Assembly: GCA_030616165.1 (NCBI GenBank)
Contig: JAUWXV010000147.1
Coordinates: 1 to 9,406, forward strand
Source: a bacterium
GTDB taxonomy: Bacteria; SM23-31; JAUVVT01
Length of the DNA stretch: 9,406 nt
Reading direction: 5' to 3'
Made by a program: the position numbers and the translations under genes. The notes beneath the pieces are model-generated. The model was given only the letters and a program-made list of their open reading frames with translations. It ran no database searches and was not told the DNA's origin. This document shows positions 2,613 through 8,886 of the stretch, piece by piece (position 1 is the first letter of the stretch; each line of letters opens with the position of its first letter).

Positions 2613-5600
2613 ATGGAAATTTTAGAAATAGCAAAATATGAATTTATGCTTTTGAGGCGCAGTATGCGCTTTAAGATAATGACTTTGCTCTATATAGCTG
2701 TAATCGGCGTAGTTAATGTAGTAATAGCCTTTTTTAATCGAAATGGCGTAAGTCCTATGATAACATCACTTTCCTCTTTCCCTTCGTATATTTCAAGTTA
2801 TCTATTCTCTTTTATTTCTGCAGTGACTATTCCATTTATAATCGGGAATTTTCTAATCGATGATAGAAAGATAAGAGTAGATGGAGTGATTTACTCCAAA
2901 CCGGCTTCAAGTTTAAAGTATATAATCGGAAAATTTATCGGTTCCGTATCGACTTTGATAACTATATCTCTGATTATAATGTTTATCTCTTCAGTTATCC
3001 AGATAACTATTGCAGTTAGACCATATAGAATTGTTCCGTATATCACTTCGTTTCTTCTTATTTGTTTACCAACTATTATTTTTCTCTCAGGGCTTGTATT
3101 TGCTTTAAATTTCATATTAAAAAACAGGCTTATAGTTTTTTTAATTGTGGTTGGATTTTCAATCTTTTCTATATTCATTATAGGTGAAAGAGGTTTTAGA
3201 CTTTTAGATTTTCCTGCCATTACACTCCCCCTTAATCCATCCGATATTATGGGTTATGGGAATATTAATAACGAAATTATCCAGAGAACTGCGTACATAT
3301 TTACCGGTTTATCCCTGGTTTTACTATCTGCTGTATTTCCTTATCGGCTTTCAGAAAGAAAATTTTTAAGCCTGAAAATGCTTATTATTTCTATTATTAT
3401 TGCTTTTATTCCTGTTTTTCTTTTTAAAAGCATCATAAATAATTTATATAAAGATAAAGAAAAAAGAATAAATACCTTAACAGCGCAAGATAAGTACTCA
3501 GGATTTCCACTTGTTAAAATTGACCATTATGATATGAATGTTGAATTATTTCCGTCAAAACACAGCCTGAAAGCGGATGTGAAGATGGATTTATCCACAC
3601 AACAAGAAAACAACCTGGACAAAGCAGTTTTCCTTTTAAATTCCGGCTTAAAGATAACCAGACTCACCGATGAAAATAATAATGACATTCCATACGAGCG
3701 GGAATATTCCATTCTGGCAATAGATTTTGAAAATTCAAGTACTCCACCAAAACAGATAAATATCTCCTATGAAGGAGAGATAAATGAAAACAGTTTTTAT
3801 CTCCTTGACAAGAGAAAAGGGAAAAAGATGTTGGATTTTGCAGGCTTAAAAACCCCAGAATTAAGATGGAATTTCGGGGAATGCTCAACCTGGCTCGGCA
3901 GGGGATGTATATTTCTTATTCCCGAATCGAAATGGTATCCTGTGCCGGGTGTTGACTACAAAGAAAACATAAGAATATCAAAAGAGTCAAACTTTGCAAC
4001 ATCGGAGATTTCCGTTACTGTTCCTGAAAAATACAAAGCGGTTACCCAGGGTTCTCTAATCAATACAGAAAAAGAAAAGAATAAAGCAATATATATATAT
4101 AAATCGGATAATCCTGTTCCACAGTTTTCGATAAATGCCGGGGAATATATAGTAAAGCATATCGAAGTTGACAGTATAGATTTTTATGCATATTACAGTT
4201 CTGTTCACAGGAAATATGCCGAATTTTTTTCAGATTCCACTGCAATACAGGATGGTATCAAAGAGTTAAAGGATTGGATAACAGACGAAACTTTGTTGAA
4301 TTATCCCTATTCTTCATTTTCTCTCGTTGAGATTCCGCTCGATTTCAGAGCATATAACGAAACTTATGAAGATTTTAATCCCATGGTACAGCCGGGAGTC
4401 ATAATGATATACGAGAACAATATTAATCTTGCAGATGTACAGTATCTCATGTATCATAGAAATAATGAAAATCAGGCAAAAAATAGAGGAGAGCATTTTG
4501 ATTCATATAACAGGAAGAAAGAATATTTTAAAAGATACATTGCCTCAAATCTTGCCTTCAGTTATAGGTTCGGCGGAAGGGATCAATCCAACGGAGATTG
4601 GGGGAGTAATTTTTTAAATGTTATGACTGAATACTGGGGATTTCAAATAGGCAGTAAAGAGAGGCAGTCAAGTTTGATAAGGAAAGGTATTAACAGGCAG
4701 ATTCCGTTTTTATTGGGGGGACAAAATGATGCAGTATTTCTATACAACAAATCACAGTTATATGATGCTGTTGAGACAAAACCGCTTATAGAATTCTCAC
4801 CCGAGGAAGACGACATCTTATATGACCGCGCTATGCAGTTAAAATGTCCTGCTATTATGAGTTCCCTATGCTATGAAATCGGGGAAGATAAATATAAAGA
4901 GATTATATCCGGGTTTCTTGAAAAATATAGATATAAGAACCCATCTCTTGAAGATTTTAAAATTTTTGCTGAAGAAACTTCAGGTAAAAACTTAGATTCC
5001 TTTTTCGAGCAATGGCTCGAGACTCCTCTTCTTGCAGGATATACCATAACAAAAGCAGAGGCATATCCTCTAATAACAAAGGAGATAAAAATCCAGTATC
5101 AGATGAAGGTCAGGGTGAGAAACTGGGAGGAAGGTCATGGAAATATCAGAGTCCGCTTTATAACCGAAAAAGACAACATTGATAGATATGTTCCTTTTGA
5201 ATCGTTCGAAGAAAAAGAGATAGGGGTTGTTGTTCCAGATAAACCGAGGTCGGTTGAAGTTAACACAATATTTTCCAAAAACTGGACATCGCCAAGATTT
5301 ATTTATACACTGCCGGAAAAACCGATGAATGCTCCTCCGTTTGATGGAGCAAAAACCGTTGAACCTGAGGAATCTGAAGAAATTATCGTTGATGACCAGG
5401 ACGAAGGTTTTTCAATTGTCAATCTAAAAAAAGACCGATTCAGGATTTTTGGACAAGAAGAAAATGGTTCAAATATTAGGGAAGGAGTGGATGGTGCATC
5501 TCTTTCAATAGATAGAATTGGCAATTGGACAAGATTTTATCACTGGCTATCTTTCGGAAAATTCAGGAATTCTATGATTGTAAAAAATAAGGGAAAAGGC

Positions 5601-5906
5601 AACACATACGCTGTCTGGAAGACTATAATACCTGAAGATGATTTTTATGAAACATACATTTTTATTAACAATTATACCAGAAACACACAATTTGTCGGAG
5701 AAAGAATAGGAAGTGTTTTTTATATTACAGTTGTTCACAGTGCCGGTGAAGAGAACGTTGAAATAAAAACATCCCGTGATATGGATGGATGGCATTATCT
5801 CGGTGCGTTTGAATATAATAAAGGAGATACAGCGGAGATAAGGCTTTCTGATAGATGTGATGGTGCGGTGATTGCCGATGCAGTCAAGTGGGTTCCTGCA
5901 GATTAG
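2613..5906 (+). CDS. ABC-2-type permease fused to an inactive M1-like peptidase and a golvesin-type domain
   Basis: Membrane protein of 1097 residues. Residues 1-275 resemble an ABC-2-type permease, with about seven hydrophobic segments (roughly 22-41, 59-81, 105-130, 143-168, 172-191, 226-243, 256-275). Basic residues in the alternate loops put the N-terminus inside and everything after segment 7 outside. Residues ~300-820 follow the M1 aminopeptidase plan: beta-rich start KIDHYDMNVELFP, YPYSSFSLVEIP (564-575) before the expected GAMEN site, and FFEQWLETP (797-805). The catalytic motifs are lost: the GAMEN region is replaced (about 576-595) and the HEXXH position reads SNLAF (645-649). Residues ~920-1097 resemble the golvesin/xanthan-lyase C-terminal domain (VWKT...GWHYLGAF...IADAVKWV). 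Permease-M1 fusions are known, usually beside an ATPase gene; none is here. Likely role: an outward sensing or binding module on a transporter (inference). No Shine-Dalgarno is visible before the ATG. Confidence 0.85.
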   Translation: MEILEIAKYEFMLLRRSMRFKIMTLLYIAVIGVVNVVIAFFNRNGVSPMITSLSSFPSYISSYLFSFISAVTIPFIIGNFLIDDRKIRVDGVIYSKPASSLKYIIGKFIGSVSTLITISLIIMFISSVIQITIAVRPYRIVPYITSFLLICLPTIIFLSGLVFALNFILKNRLIVFLIVVGFSIFSIFIIGERGFRLLDFPAITLPLNPSDIMGYGNINNEIIQRTAYIFTGLSLVLLSAVFPYRLSERKFLSLKMLIISIIIAFIPVFLFKSIINNLYKDKEKRINTLTAQDKYSGFPLVKIDHYDMNVELFPSKHSLKADVKMDLSTQQENNLDKAVFLLNSGLKITRLTDENNNDIPYEREYSILAIDFENSSTPPKQINISYEGEINENSFYLLDKRKGKKMLDFAGLKTPELRWNFGECSTWLGRGCIFLIPESKWYPVPGVDYKENIRISKESNFATSEISVTVPEKYKAVTQGSLINTEKEKNKAIYIYKSDNPVPQFSINAGEYIVKHIEVDSIDFYAYYSSVHRKYAEFFSDSTAIQDGIKELKDWITDETLLNYPYSSFSLVEIPLDFRAYNETYEDFNPMVQPGVIMIYENNINLADVQYLMYHRNNENQAKNRGEHFDSYNRKKEYFKRYIASNLAFSYRFGGRDQSNGDWGSNFLNVMTEYWGFQIGSKERQSSLIRKGINRQIPFLLGGQNDAVFLYNKSQLYDAVETKPLIEFSPEEDDILYDRAMQLKCPAIMSSLCYEIGEDKYKEIISGFLEKYRYKNPSLEDFKIFAEETSGKNLDSFFEQWLETPLLAGYTITKAEAYPLITKEIKIQYQMKVRVRNWEEGHGNIRVRFITEKDNIDRYVPFESFEEKEIGVVVPDKPRSVEVNTIFSKNWTSPRFIYTLPEKPMNAPPFDGAKTVEPEESEEIIVDDQDEGFSIVNLKKDRFRIFGQEENGSNIREGVDGASLSIDRIGNWTRFYHWLSFGKFRNSMIVKNKGKGNTYAVWKTIIPEDDFYETYIFINNYTRNTQFVGERIGSVFYITVVHSAGEENVEIKTSRDMDGWHYLGAFEYNKGDTAEIRLSDRCDGAVIADAVKWVPAD

Positions 5907-5971: not shown

Positions 5972-6007
5972 AAAAAAGCAGTATATTTAAAATATACTGC
6001 TTTTTTT
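5972..6007. terminator. Bidirectional Rho-independent terminator
   Basis: GCAGTATATT (5978-5987) pairs perfectly with AATATACTGC (5991-6000) around a 3-nt loop. Six A precede and seven T follow (6001-6007), so the structure is an intrinsic terminator read from either side. It lies 65 nt after the permease-fusion stop and serves the convergent arrangement with the rhomboid gene. Confidence 0.9.
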
Positions 6008-6175: not shown

Positions 6176-6856
6176 TCATTTCAAGACTTTATACGACCCA
6201 ATTCTGCCCTTTTCAAAGAACTTAATTAAAATAAATCCTACAGCAAATCCCCCTATATGAGCAAACCAGGCAACTCCACCCCCCCCTAAACCAGCACTGT
6301 AAATCTGAAGTATAAACCAAAGTCCCAAAACAATAATTGATGGAATCCAGACTGTTCGTATAAAGATTAAAAGCCAGATAAGAACAAGAACCTTTGCCCT
6401 TGGATAAAGCATTAGATATGCCCCTAAAATCCCTGCAATAGCTCCACTTGCCCCTACCATAGGTATAAGAGAATTTATATTCAATATTATATGTGTGAAA
6501 CTTGCCGCCATGCCACATAAGAGGTAAAAAATAACAAAACGATAATGACCTACCGAATCCTCAATATCATTACCGAAAATCCACAGATAAAGCATATTCC
6601 CGAGAAGGTGAAAAATATCTCCGTGAATAAACATAGAAGTAAAAATTGATAATTGAACCGGAAATGGACTGTAAGGTGGTCTATCTGTAAAATGTGTTAT
6701 TTCATAAGGAACTGCACCCATCCTGAAAATAAATCTCTCTACTTCTATTCCCAGTGAAAACTGGTAAACAAAAACAATCCCATTTACCGCTATCAAAAAA
6801 ATTGTTATATAGGGAAACTTCAGGGTTGGATTATCATCTTTTAAGGGTATAAACAT
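6176..6856 (-). CDS. Rhomboid family intramembrane serine protease
   Basis: Polytopic membrane protease that cuts transmembrane substrates inside the bilayer. Counting from the ATG at 6856 (226 residues), the catalytic serine is S137 in GASG and the histidine is H200 in AHIGGF. The oxyanion-side motif HLLGN supplies H83 and N87. Six hydrophobic segments are visible, the usual bacterial core, followed by a short basic tail. The frame stays open upstream to an ATG at 6946, which would add 30 residues (MSLRGAKRR...). That stretch is a translated REP palindrome and matches no rhomboid, so I prefer MFIPLKDDNP, a typical rhomboid beginning. Neither start has a good Shine-Dalgarno. The gene converges on the permease-fusion gene and probably ends at the shared terminator. 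Substrates cannot be inferred. Confidence 0.9.
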   Translation of the reverse strand: MFIPLKDDNPTLKFPYITIFLIAVNGIVFVYQFSLGIEVERFIFRMGAVPYEITHFTDRPPYSPFPVQLSIFTSMFIHGDIFHLLGNMLYLWIFGNDIEDSVGHYRFVIFYLLCGMAASFTHIILNINSLIPMVGASGAIAGILGAYLMLYPRAKVLVLIWLLIFIRTVWIPSIIVLGLWFILQIYSAGLGGGGVAWFAHIGGFAVGFILIKFFEKGRIGSYKVLK

Positions 6857-6897
6857 AGTTTTTTTAAAATTTTTACTATTCAGAAACTGCTGAAAAA

Positions 6898-6945
6898 GTA
6901 GATTACCACGCCTGCGCAGGCGTCGCTTCGCTCCTCGTAATGACA
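6898..6945 (-). repeat. REP element upstream of the rhomboid gene
   Basis: Read on the minus strand this begins TGTCATTACGAGGAGCGAAG and ends in GTGGTAATCT, a layout of the widespread REP type. In its centre is a perfect 16-bp palindrome ACGCCTGCGCAGGCGT (6908-6923). It is translated in the open frame upstream of the rhomboid start. Confidence 0.75.
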
Positions 6946-6956
6946 TGTATGACTGT

Positions 6957-7152: not shown

Positions 7153-8886
7153 TCATTTCAACTTCAATCCTATAACTTCATACAAAAACCATCTTAAAAA
7201 ACCAACATCAAATATTGATAAATCAAACTCTGTTCTCAGTTTACCTGCATAATTCTTATCTGTTTTTAACACTTCAAAATAATATTCTTTAATTACTCCC
7301 GACATTTCACTTTTTTTTATCCTGAATTTTCTCATCAAGTTCTTTGCTTCGGTTATTTTTTTACTTTTCAAATTAAAAATTATAAGTTCTTTTACAGAAT
7401 CTACATATTGCGTTCTGTTAAGATTAAATGCCTCTGCAATATTCAAACACTTAAGCATTTTATTTTCTTCAAAATTTTTATTATAATAGTCTTTGACCCT
7501 TTCCATAAATTGTTCATCTTTAATAATTGAGTCTTTTATAGGAAATTTATCCATCAAAATAAAGATATTATCGAAATCATTGTTTTTTGCCCATTCATAA
7601 ATTATCTCTAAAACATCTTTTCTCACTGAATCAAAATTAAATGAAAATTCCATATAAGTTTTAATTACTGTTTGAATCTCTTTTCTTTTCAAAGCAAAAA
7701 TAAATATCTTCTCTGCAACAATATCGGTTTTTTCATAATCCAAAACATTTAATGCTCTTAAAGATTTTAAAAGTTCATAGTATTCCATACTACTATTATA
7801 ATCGATTACTTCTCTATCAATATTTTTAGTAAGTTTTTCAGATTGTATAGTTACATTTTTAAAAATGTGGGGGAAAAGATGGTCATTATTAAGGGCATAA
7901 TCTTTTATCAGGTTGATAGCAAGATAAGTTTTTGATTTTAATCCAATACCGGCATATAATTTCCCGTCCGCAAGAAATTCAAAAATCTCATAAACTATCT
8001 CGGCAATTTTTCTCACTAAATTATATTCCTTACTATTTTTTTCTATCTTAACATCATATACACCGAATTCGGTAAGAATTTTTCTGGCTTTGAAAAAAGG
8101 GTCATTAACATCAATTTTTTTCCAGTTTTTGTATATTCCTTTCTCAAGATTTTTTCTGAAGCGCTCAATTTCTTTCTTAAAAGCCTCATAAGCTGCTTTT
8201 TTTATAGCTGCATCACCAAGTTTCAGATTTTTGCTTATCAACGCTGCTGTGTAAAACGTTTTTACATTGAAATTGAAGTTGTACTCCTCTATCGCTTTTT
8301 GAAAGGTAACATTTTTCGGGAGTTCGAATAATTTATTAATATTAAAGGCATCACTGTAGTCTCTCACAAGATTCTCTTTCTTAAAACTCATACTTCTTTT
8401 ATATGCCTTTTCCAAGACTTCAATTATAGGTTTATCATTCATTATGAATTTATTATATCTATTCCATATATTAACAGCCTTTTCATATTTTTTGCTTAAA
8501 ATCAGGTTTTTTATGAGTTCAACTAATGGCTTTATTAATGACTTGTCTGTTAAATTGAAATTTTCTACTATATAGAGCATTACATTATAATTTTTCTGCT
8601 TTTCAGCAAAAAGAAATGCGAGTCCAACCACTTCAGTTACTTCATCTTCTTCTAATGAGAACACATTCTTCAATCTATCGATTTCGCTAACTTTTAATAG
8701 AAACAAACCTTTAATTAACGATAAATAAACAAATTTTAAATTTTTTTTCTGTTCGTCTTTAGCTCTAAATGCTTCTGAGACAAACTCCTTCCCAGCATCC
8801 GGATCTTCTATGATTCTCTTTATTAGTGGTTTATCAGGATACTTACCAATTAACTCTTCTTTAAGTTCAGAGATTACTATTTTCAT
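7153..8886 (-). CDS. Uncharacterised all-helical solenoid (TPR/PPR-like) protein
   Basis: I do not recognise this 577-residue protein. It has no signal peptide and no membrane segment, is rich in Lys, Glu, Ile, Leu and Phe, and is almost wholly helical, so it is probably cytoplasmic. It shows degenerate repeats of about 35 residues: F76-N109, F110-K146, F416-I450 and F487-I522. Each has a hydrophobic helix, a basic turn such as SKKYEKA or SKKITEA, and a second helix. The 110 and 487 copies share about 11 of 35 positions. This layout fits a helix-hairpin solenoid of the TPR/PPR/clathrin-repeat kind, a scaffold for protein or RNA contacts. No catalytic motif is visible. ATG at 8886 is chosen because a good promoter lies about 40 nt upstream; the Shine-Dalgarno is weak. 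It is read in the same direction as rhomboid but separated by repeats, so an operon is unlikely. Confidence 0.8.
   Translation of the reverse strand: MKIVISELKEELIGKYPDKPLIKRIIEDPDAGKEFVSEAFRAKDEQKKNLKFVYLSLIKGLFLLKVSEIDRLKNVFSLEEDEVTEVVGLAFLFAEKQKNYNVMLYIVENFNLTDKSLIKPLVELIKNLILSKKYEKAVNIWNRYNKFIMNDKPIIEVLEKAYKRSMSFKKENLVRDYSDAFNINKLFELPKNVTFQKAIEEYNFNFNVKTFYTAALISKNLKLGDAAIKKAAYEAFKKEIERFRKNLEKGIYKNWKKIDVNDPFFKARKILTEFGVYDVKIEKNSKEYNLVRKIAEIVYEIFEFLADGKLYAGIGLKSKTYLAINLIKDYALNNDHLFPHIFKNVTIQSEKLTKNIDREVIDYNSSMEYYELLKSLRALNVLDYEKTDIVAEKIFIFALKRKEIQTVIKTYMEFSFNFDSVRKDVLEIIYEWAKNNDFDNIFILMDKFPIKDSIIKDEQFMERVKDYYNKNFEENKMLKCLNIAEAFNLNRTQYVDSVKELIIFNLKSKKITEAKNLMRKFRIKKSEMSGVIKEYYFEVLKTDKNYAGKLRTEFDLSIFDVGFLRWFLYEVIGLKLK

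Follow-up and report, generated by a model that had tools for sequence, protein, structure and literature searches.

A seven-helix ABC-2-type permease combining an M1-peptidase fold devoid of catalytic residues with a Golvesin_C domain: a possible export permease outside its operon

The window, i.e., the whole stretch of 9,406 nucleotides analysed here, contains on its forward strand a real gene, the open reading frame 2613-5906, which encodes a protein of 1097 amino acids (P0001) successively composed of a 7-TM ABC-2-type permease part, an M1-aminopeptidase fold without catalytic residues, and a Golvesin_C domain. Genes for HU, a metallo-hydrolase and HisF occur upstream, and a terminator-like hairpin followed by a rhomboid gene on the opposite strand occurs downstream. 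This rhomboid-family membrane protein (6176-6946, minus strand) resembles the rhombosortase model TIGR03902, although below its threshold. Farther on, the minus strand encodes a 577-aa protein (7153-8886) devoid of any Pfam or NCBIfam match; the genome encodes two very diverged paralogues of it (22-24% identical), one of which lies within about 6 kb of the permease gene of contig C265, and a single relative occurs in another genome, G001. The features of the permease gene and its 3' flank are distributed as follows:

2613..3437, plus strand: ABC-2-type transmembrane part, residues 1-275, about seven helices, N-in/C-out (hydropathy, Lys/Arg distribution, profile match)
2628..2681, plus strand: N-terminal amphipathic 'elbow', residues 6-23 (column counts)
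2859..2945, plus strand: cytosolic TM2-TM3 loop, residues 83-111, with conserved D84, K96, G106, K107 and G110 (column counts)
3480..5312, plus strand: M1-aminopeptidase-fold ectodomain, residues 290-900 (hhalign; sub-cut-off Pfam matches)
4377..4391, plus strand: NPMVQ, residues 589-593, aligned with GAMEN and preceding P594 and E601, both conserved in the family (profile alignment)
4545..4559, plus strand: SNLAF, residues 645-649, within a family-specific insertion and outside the HEXXH column
4614..4628, plus strand: LNVMT, residues 668-672, at the HEXXH position (profile alignment)
4683..4685, plus strand: K691, aligned with the third zinc ligand, the distal Glu (profile alignment)
4836..4838, plus strand: Q742, aligned with the catalytic Tyr of M1 enzymes, with K744 kept two residues on (profile alignment)
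5547..5891, plus strand: Golvesin_C (PF25275), residues 979-1093 (Pfam E 6.5e-11, 42.8 bits for a cut-off of 31.6)
5972..6006, no strand assigned: hairpin, a near-perfect palindrome with T-runs on both strands, located between convergent genes 65 bases past the P0001 stop and probably serving as a bidirectional terminator

Three full-length paralogues of P0001 are encoded in the same genome, on contigs C265 (66% identity), C24 (64%) and C228 (31-36%). Towards the two closer ones, the substitution rates of P0001 amount to 0.16-0.27 for dN and 0.8-1.8 for dS.

The transmembrane helices of P0001, delineated from the family-averaged hydropathy and the sequence, lie near residues 22-40, 64-82, 115-133, 147-165, 173-191, 228-246 and 257-275, the sixth being placed by eye. 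Stretches rich in Lys and Arg occur ahead of TM1, in the TM2-TM3 loop and ahead of TM7, and this enrichment of the loops on the N-terminal side, combined with the odd number of helices, is consistent with an N-in/C-out topology, so that the M1-fold and Golvesin_C ectodomains are extracytoplasmic, as the original prediction had proposed. The direct match of P0001 to the Pfam model ABC2_membrane_3 is insignificant (E 0.55). The profile of the family transmembrane part matches the transmembrane parts of ABC-2/M1 fusion proteins with a probability of 97.9% (E 3.5e-13), and the ABC2_membrane_2 match of these fusions passes the Pfam cut-off; judging from these profiles, the transmembrane part of P0001 is of the ABC-2 type. 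Residues E10, R16 and F20 of the elbow are invariant both in the members of the family encoded in operons and in the clade of operon-less, orphan copies to which P0001 belongs and, by analogy with ABC-2 exporters, this segment would contact the ATPase. The cytosolic loop 83-111 is probably the ATPase-coupling loop.

Taken alone, P0001 matches Peptidase_M1 over residues 717-801 with 27.5 bits, just under the cut-off of 27.7, and its Peptidase_M1_N match (residues 304-395) also falls under the cut-off; of the two domains expected from a profile search, only Golvesin_C was thus recovered at the Pfam threshold. Since the single-sequence M1 matches were borderline, relatives were collected for profile construction. 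Compared by hhalign to 33 HEXXH-bearing M1-like proteins, the family ectodomain profile aligns over 478 columns with a probability of 100 and an E-value of 2.5e-40, a resemblance well beyond chance which bears out the claim that the region retains the overall plan of M1 enzymes. The M1 domains of the ABC-2/M1 fusions match the family as well (99.6%, E 2.9e-24). According to these profile alignments, the ectodomain has a complete M1 fold, comprising the N-terminal beta saddle and the thermolysin-like domain. Structure models built from the window sequence without homologues were of low confidence (mean pLDDT of 38.5 and 35.4).

With respect to the catalytic site, the ExxHQWWG stretch of M1 enzymes aligns to N669-VMT-EYWG of P0001 in the profile-profile comparison, the first His column of HEXXH, at the edge of an insertion, being placed by continuity. 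The HEXXH position consequently corresponds to LNVMT and not, as originally read, to SNLAF. Neither HEXXH nor HxxEH occurs anywhere in the cleft region of the 71 full-length sequences of the family (0/71 for both), none of which possesses the H668+E669 pair or H672, or a Glu or Asp at column 691 (0/71). The GAMEN motif (GXMEN) is similarly absent from P0001 and from some 70 full-length homologues distributed over several phyla, and the column of the catalytic Tyr is variably occupied by D, K, E, Q, R or N. The disappearance of both motifs noticed in P0001 is therefore real, but it is shared by the whole family instead of being peculiar to this gene and, since the HEXXH and zinc-ligand residues are missing in all 71 sequences, the catalytic loss is ancestral to the sampled family. 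A survey of the alignment columns in the same 71 sequences ruled out alternative zinc motifs in the cleft. The family possesses its own conserved set of residues, namely H532, E573, Q593 (67/71), P594 (70/71), E601 (71/71) and K744, which suggests that a non-catalytic pocket has been retained.

The C-terminal domain was correctly recognized from the outset as golvesin-like, the Golvesin_C match standing above the Pfam cut-off. Among solved structures, the C-terminus of the Paenibacillus xanthan lyase 6f2p is the closest to it, matched by the family profile with an E-value of 1.1e-10. Golvesin and xanthan lyase are included in the CBM6-CBM35-CBM36_like_2 group, a family of carbohydrate-binding domains in which two lectins have been described (PMC9166713). 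By this kinship, the Golvesin_C domain of P0001 is predicted to be of the sugar-binding type.

Among the genomes searched, the family is present in 5 of 6 from the source phylum, in 31 of 64 and 43 of 82 from two further phyla, and in a single genome out of 68 from yet another. Peptide-pattern scans of genome contigs and viral contigs retrieved no relatives, the family being too divergent for this method. Most members belong to a standard operon, in which a DrrA/GldA-like ATPase gene precedes the pseudo-M1 permease gene, followed by genes for TolC, a membrane-fusion protein (MFP) and an RND pump. Counted over the 64 non-orphan genes, and for the upstream side over those loci with a flank of at least 900 nt, the ATPase gene lies upstream on the same strand in 57 of 59 loci; a 58th (locus L099) was recovered by tblastn, which leaves L169 as the sole non-orphan locus with upstream sequence but without an ATPase gene. 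At L169 (genome G422), a FdhD/NarQ-family gene (4261-5220) occupies the ATPase slot, and MFP and RND genes follow. On the downstream side, TolC or the MFP is the product of the next gene at 58 of the 60 non-orphan loci whose flank is long enough, and an AcrB-type RND gene comes thereafter wherever the sequence reaches. The C228 copy, from the same genome as P0001, is itself located in such a TolC/MFP/RND operon. The best-scoring models are GldA and DrrA for the operon ATPases and multidrug RND models for the RND partners, all of them below the curated cut-offs. At locus L039 (2183-5438, contig C9 of G005), a homologue is interrupted, through either a frameshift or a faulty assembly, and reads as two frames; the ATPase gene beside it is intact.

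No ATPase, TolC, MFP or RND genes were found near P0001 or near the C265, C24 and G001 copies, the upstream flank being short for C24 and the G001 copy being cut by the contig end. In a tree built by a quick method and containing several long branches, these four copies are grouped in one clade (support 100), and a second clade is made up of the four orphans of genome G392; by this tree, the orphan status arose at least twice, since the two clades are separate. The G392 orphans (L163-L166, from another phylum) stand beside one operonic copy. The loci of the C265 (L035), C24 (L036) and G001 (L038, contig C42) orphans are situated amid glycan-catabolism genes, coding for DUF5060/apiosidase-like proteins, GH42, GH2, a 3-keto-disaccharide hydrolase and a Gfo/Idh oxidoreductase. 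Within less than 5 kb of two orphans, DUF5060/apiosidase-like genes account for three matches in G000 and four in G001; as a conserved orphan neighbourhood, this candidate is weak, with 27% identity and a different arrangement.

Within the P0001 clade, the transmembrane part has diverged less rapidly than the M1 part (dN of 0.16-0.20 and 0.21-0.27, respectively, for a dS of 0.8-1.8; identities of 67-72% and 61-68%) and is still under purifying selection. It keeps E10, R16, F20, G106, K107, D199 and R225, which are invariant or nearly so in the operonic members. Compared to the operonic C228 copy, in contrast, the transmembrane part of the clade is less conserved than the M1 part (26-27% versus 31-34%). 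Owing to its slower evolution and to the kept residues, and with the reservation introduced by the C228 comparison, P0001 is likely still an export permease, and probably borrows an ATPase from another locus of the genome. Most of the further ATPases examined in this genome are accompanied by partner genes of their own; the one closest to the C228 ATPase, encoded on contig C190 (44% identical), is not an obvious free partner since it sits among RND genes.

Taken together, we favour, with a probability of roughly 45%, the reading of P0001 as an orphan, duplicated half-size ABC-2 export permease with a non-cutting periplasmic binding or docking module, energized by an ATPase from elsewhere. Permeases of the ABC-2 type associated with DrrA/GldA-type ATPases are exporters. 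The permease would dimerise and pair with two ATPase subunits to remove from the cytoplasm or the inner leaflet a substrate, perhaps a compound linked to a lipid, a peptide or a sugar. Outside, the pseudo-M1/Golvesin module would bind the exported substrate or attach itself to the MFP/RND pump; in operonic members, the tripartite RND-TolC channel would then receive the substrate uncut. In the P0001 lineage, with its gene outside the operon and in three copies, export would proceed with the ATPase encoded elsewhere. This sequence of export, outside binding or docking, and hand-over is proposed on the precedent of DrrABC/MmpL7 and the lectin kinship of Golvesin_C. Extended to the whole family, it becomes a two-stage exporter, in which an ABC-2 permease with a non-cutting M1 receptor and a lectin-like tip feeds RND-TolC, and whose permease module has escaped the operon twice and multiplied, a scheme that we consider speculative and rather unlikely in its entirety.

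A possible though doubtful alternative is that P0001 and the C265, C24 and G001 copies have lost transport altogether and become membrane-anchored periplasmic receptors or lectins, the transmembrane part acting as a mere anchor. The lack of an ATPase gene alongside any orphan speaks for it, as do the location of some orphan loci amid glycoside hydrolase genes, the lower conservation of the transmembrane part towards C228, and the independent set of four orphans in G392, in which the transmembrane part is under looser constraint than the ectodomain (its identity minus that of the M1 part goes down to -13, for an average of +6 in operonic pairs of similar divergence). However, the transmembrane part of the P0001 clade is more conserved than the M1 part among the orphans themselves and keeps the invariant residues of its cytosolic face, and the receptor role may fit the G392 orphans better than P0001.

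A less plausible role for the protein is mechanical or assembly-related, in the manner of MacB or FtsX: it would transmit an ATP-driven motion through the pseudo-M1 domain to MFP/RND/TolC or to envelope enzymes without being a substrate conduit. MacB does operate by mechanotransmission, and the linkage of the family to MFP, TolC and RND genes is strict. A review attributes to MacB a distinct ABC mechanism, in which it acts together with MacA and TolC (PMC5985334). Against it, the transmembrane parts of ABC-2 proteins are normally true conduits, and nothing in the present data indicates a contact with the MFP. The capture of peptides or glycopeptides for uptake, as originally proposed, is suggested by the fusion of a permease to a periplasmic binding-type module but is very improbable, because ABC-2 permeases with DrrA/GldA-like ATPases export and the family has its place in efflux operons of the TolC/MFP/RND kind; in the loci examined, genes for importers or solute-binding proteins were not seen. 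What stands of the proposal is the permease with a non-catalytic M1-fold ectodomain and a Golvesin_C domain. Equally remote is a persisting metallopeptidase with zinc held by other residues: H532, E573 and E601 are indeed invariant in the ectodomain, the latter two flanking the GAMEN position in the sequence, but the columns of HEXXH and of the third ligand contain no conserved His, Glu or Asp, that of the catalytic Tyr varies, and H532 makes no replacement zinc site since it aligns to a His of an active fusion.

By associating a silenced peptidase with a sugar-binding-type domain and an operon-fixed RND pump, the family dissociates binding by the M1 fold from cutting, and it makes it possible to test whether an ABC exporter and a tripartite RND pump act as one pathway. 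The orphan copies represent a natural experiment on the fate of a permease after the loss of its ATPase gene. If true, the two-stage ABC-2/RND-TolC export machine would be widespread and undescribed.

Among the systems to which the family can be compared, xanthan lyase 6f2p and the Cbeg4/5 lectins (PMC9166713) share the same family of C-terminal domain but are secreted lyases or lectins, whereas P0001 is a membrane permease. Another non-catalytic use of the M1 fold is known from eukaryotes. The M1 domain of TAF2 has lost its catalytic residues. As a component of TFIID, TAF2 uses its M1-homology domain as a binding platform, for which DNA contacts have been reported (PMC6220335); it differs in being a eukaryotic nuclear protein and not a transporter. 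MacAB-TolC resembles the present family by an ABC permease with a periplasmic domain, partnered by an MFP and TolC, but the fold of MacB is not of the ABC-2 type, its periplasmic domain is not an M1 fold, and the RND partner is absent. In the case of PDIM, export requires MmpL7, an RND protein, as well as DrrABC (PMC11539658), a DrrA-type ATPase, ABC-2 permeases and an RND protein thus serving one and the same export, as is proposed here; DrrB and DrrC, however, have no pseudo-peptidase or Golvesin_C ectodomain, and DrrABC/MmpL7 operates without TolC and MFP.

A close counterpart is the ABC-2/M1 fusion exporter Q1D520 from Myxococcus xanthus (TC 3.A.1.145.1), made of 13 TM and a zinc M1 domain, which was described in 2013 with a substrate merely guessed (PMC3924187). 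This account of the active fusion was the sole match in the open-access literature on golvesin and on M1/ABC-2 fusions, in keeping with the suspicion that the present domain combination is under-described. Large ABC-2 proteins with an intact M1 site (HEAAHQWWGN...LSEG) occur in the G033 group and match the published Q1D520; they keep HEXXH but are devoid of Golvesin_C, in 28 of 31 loci the gene directly preceding theirs encodes an ATPase, and these ATPases are 40-45% identical to that of C228. Both families thus consist of an ABC-2 transmembrane part followed by an extracytoplasmic M1 domain, with an odd number of helices and, in operonic members, a neighbouring ATPase of the same type. Unlike the 13-TM zinc peptidases of TC 3.A.1.145, however, the window family possesses 7 TM, lacks HEXXH and GAMEN, and has both a Golvesin_C domain and an RND operon. 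The active form presumably came first, catalysis being the general state of M1 proteins. Our preferred reading of the P0001 family is that of a half-size relative of the TC 3.A.1.145 fusions, silenced catalytically and equipped with Golvesin_C.
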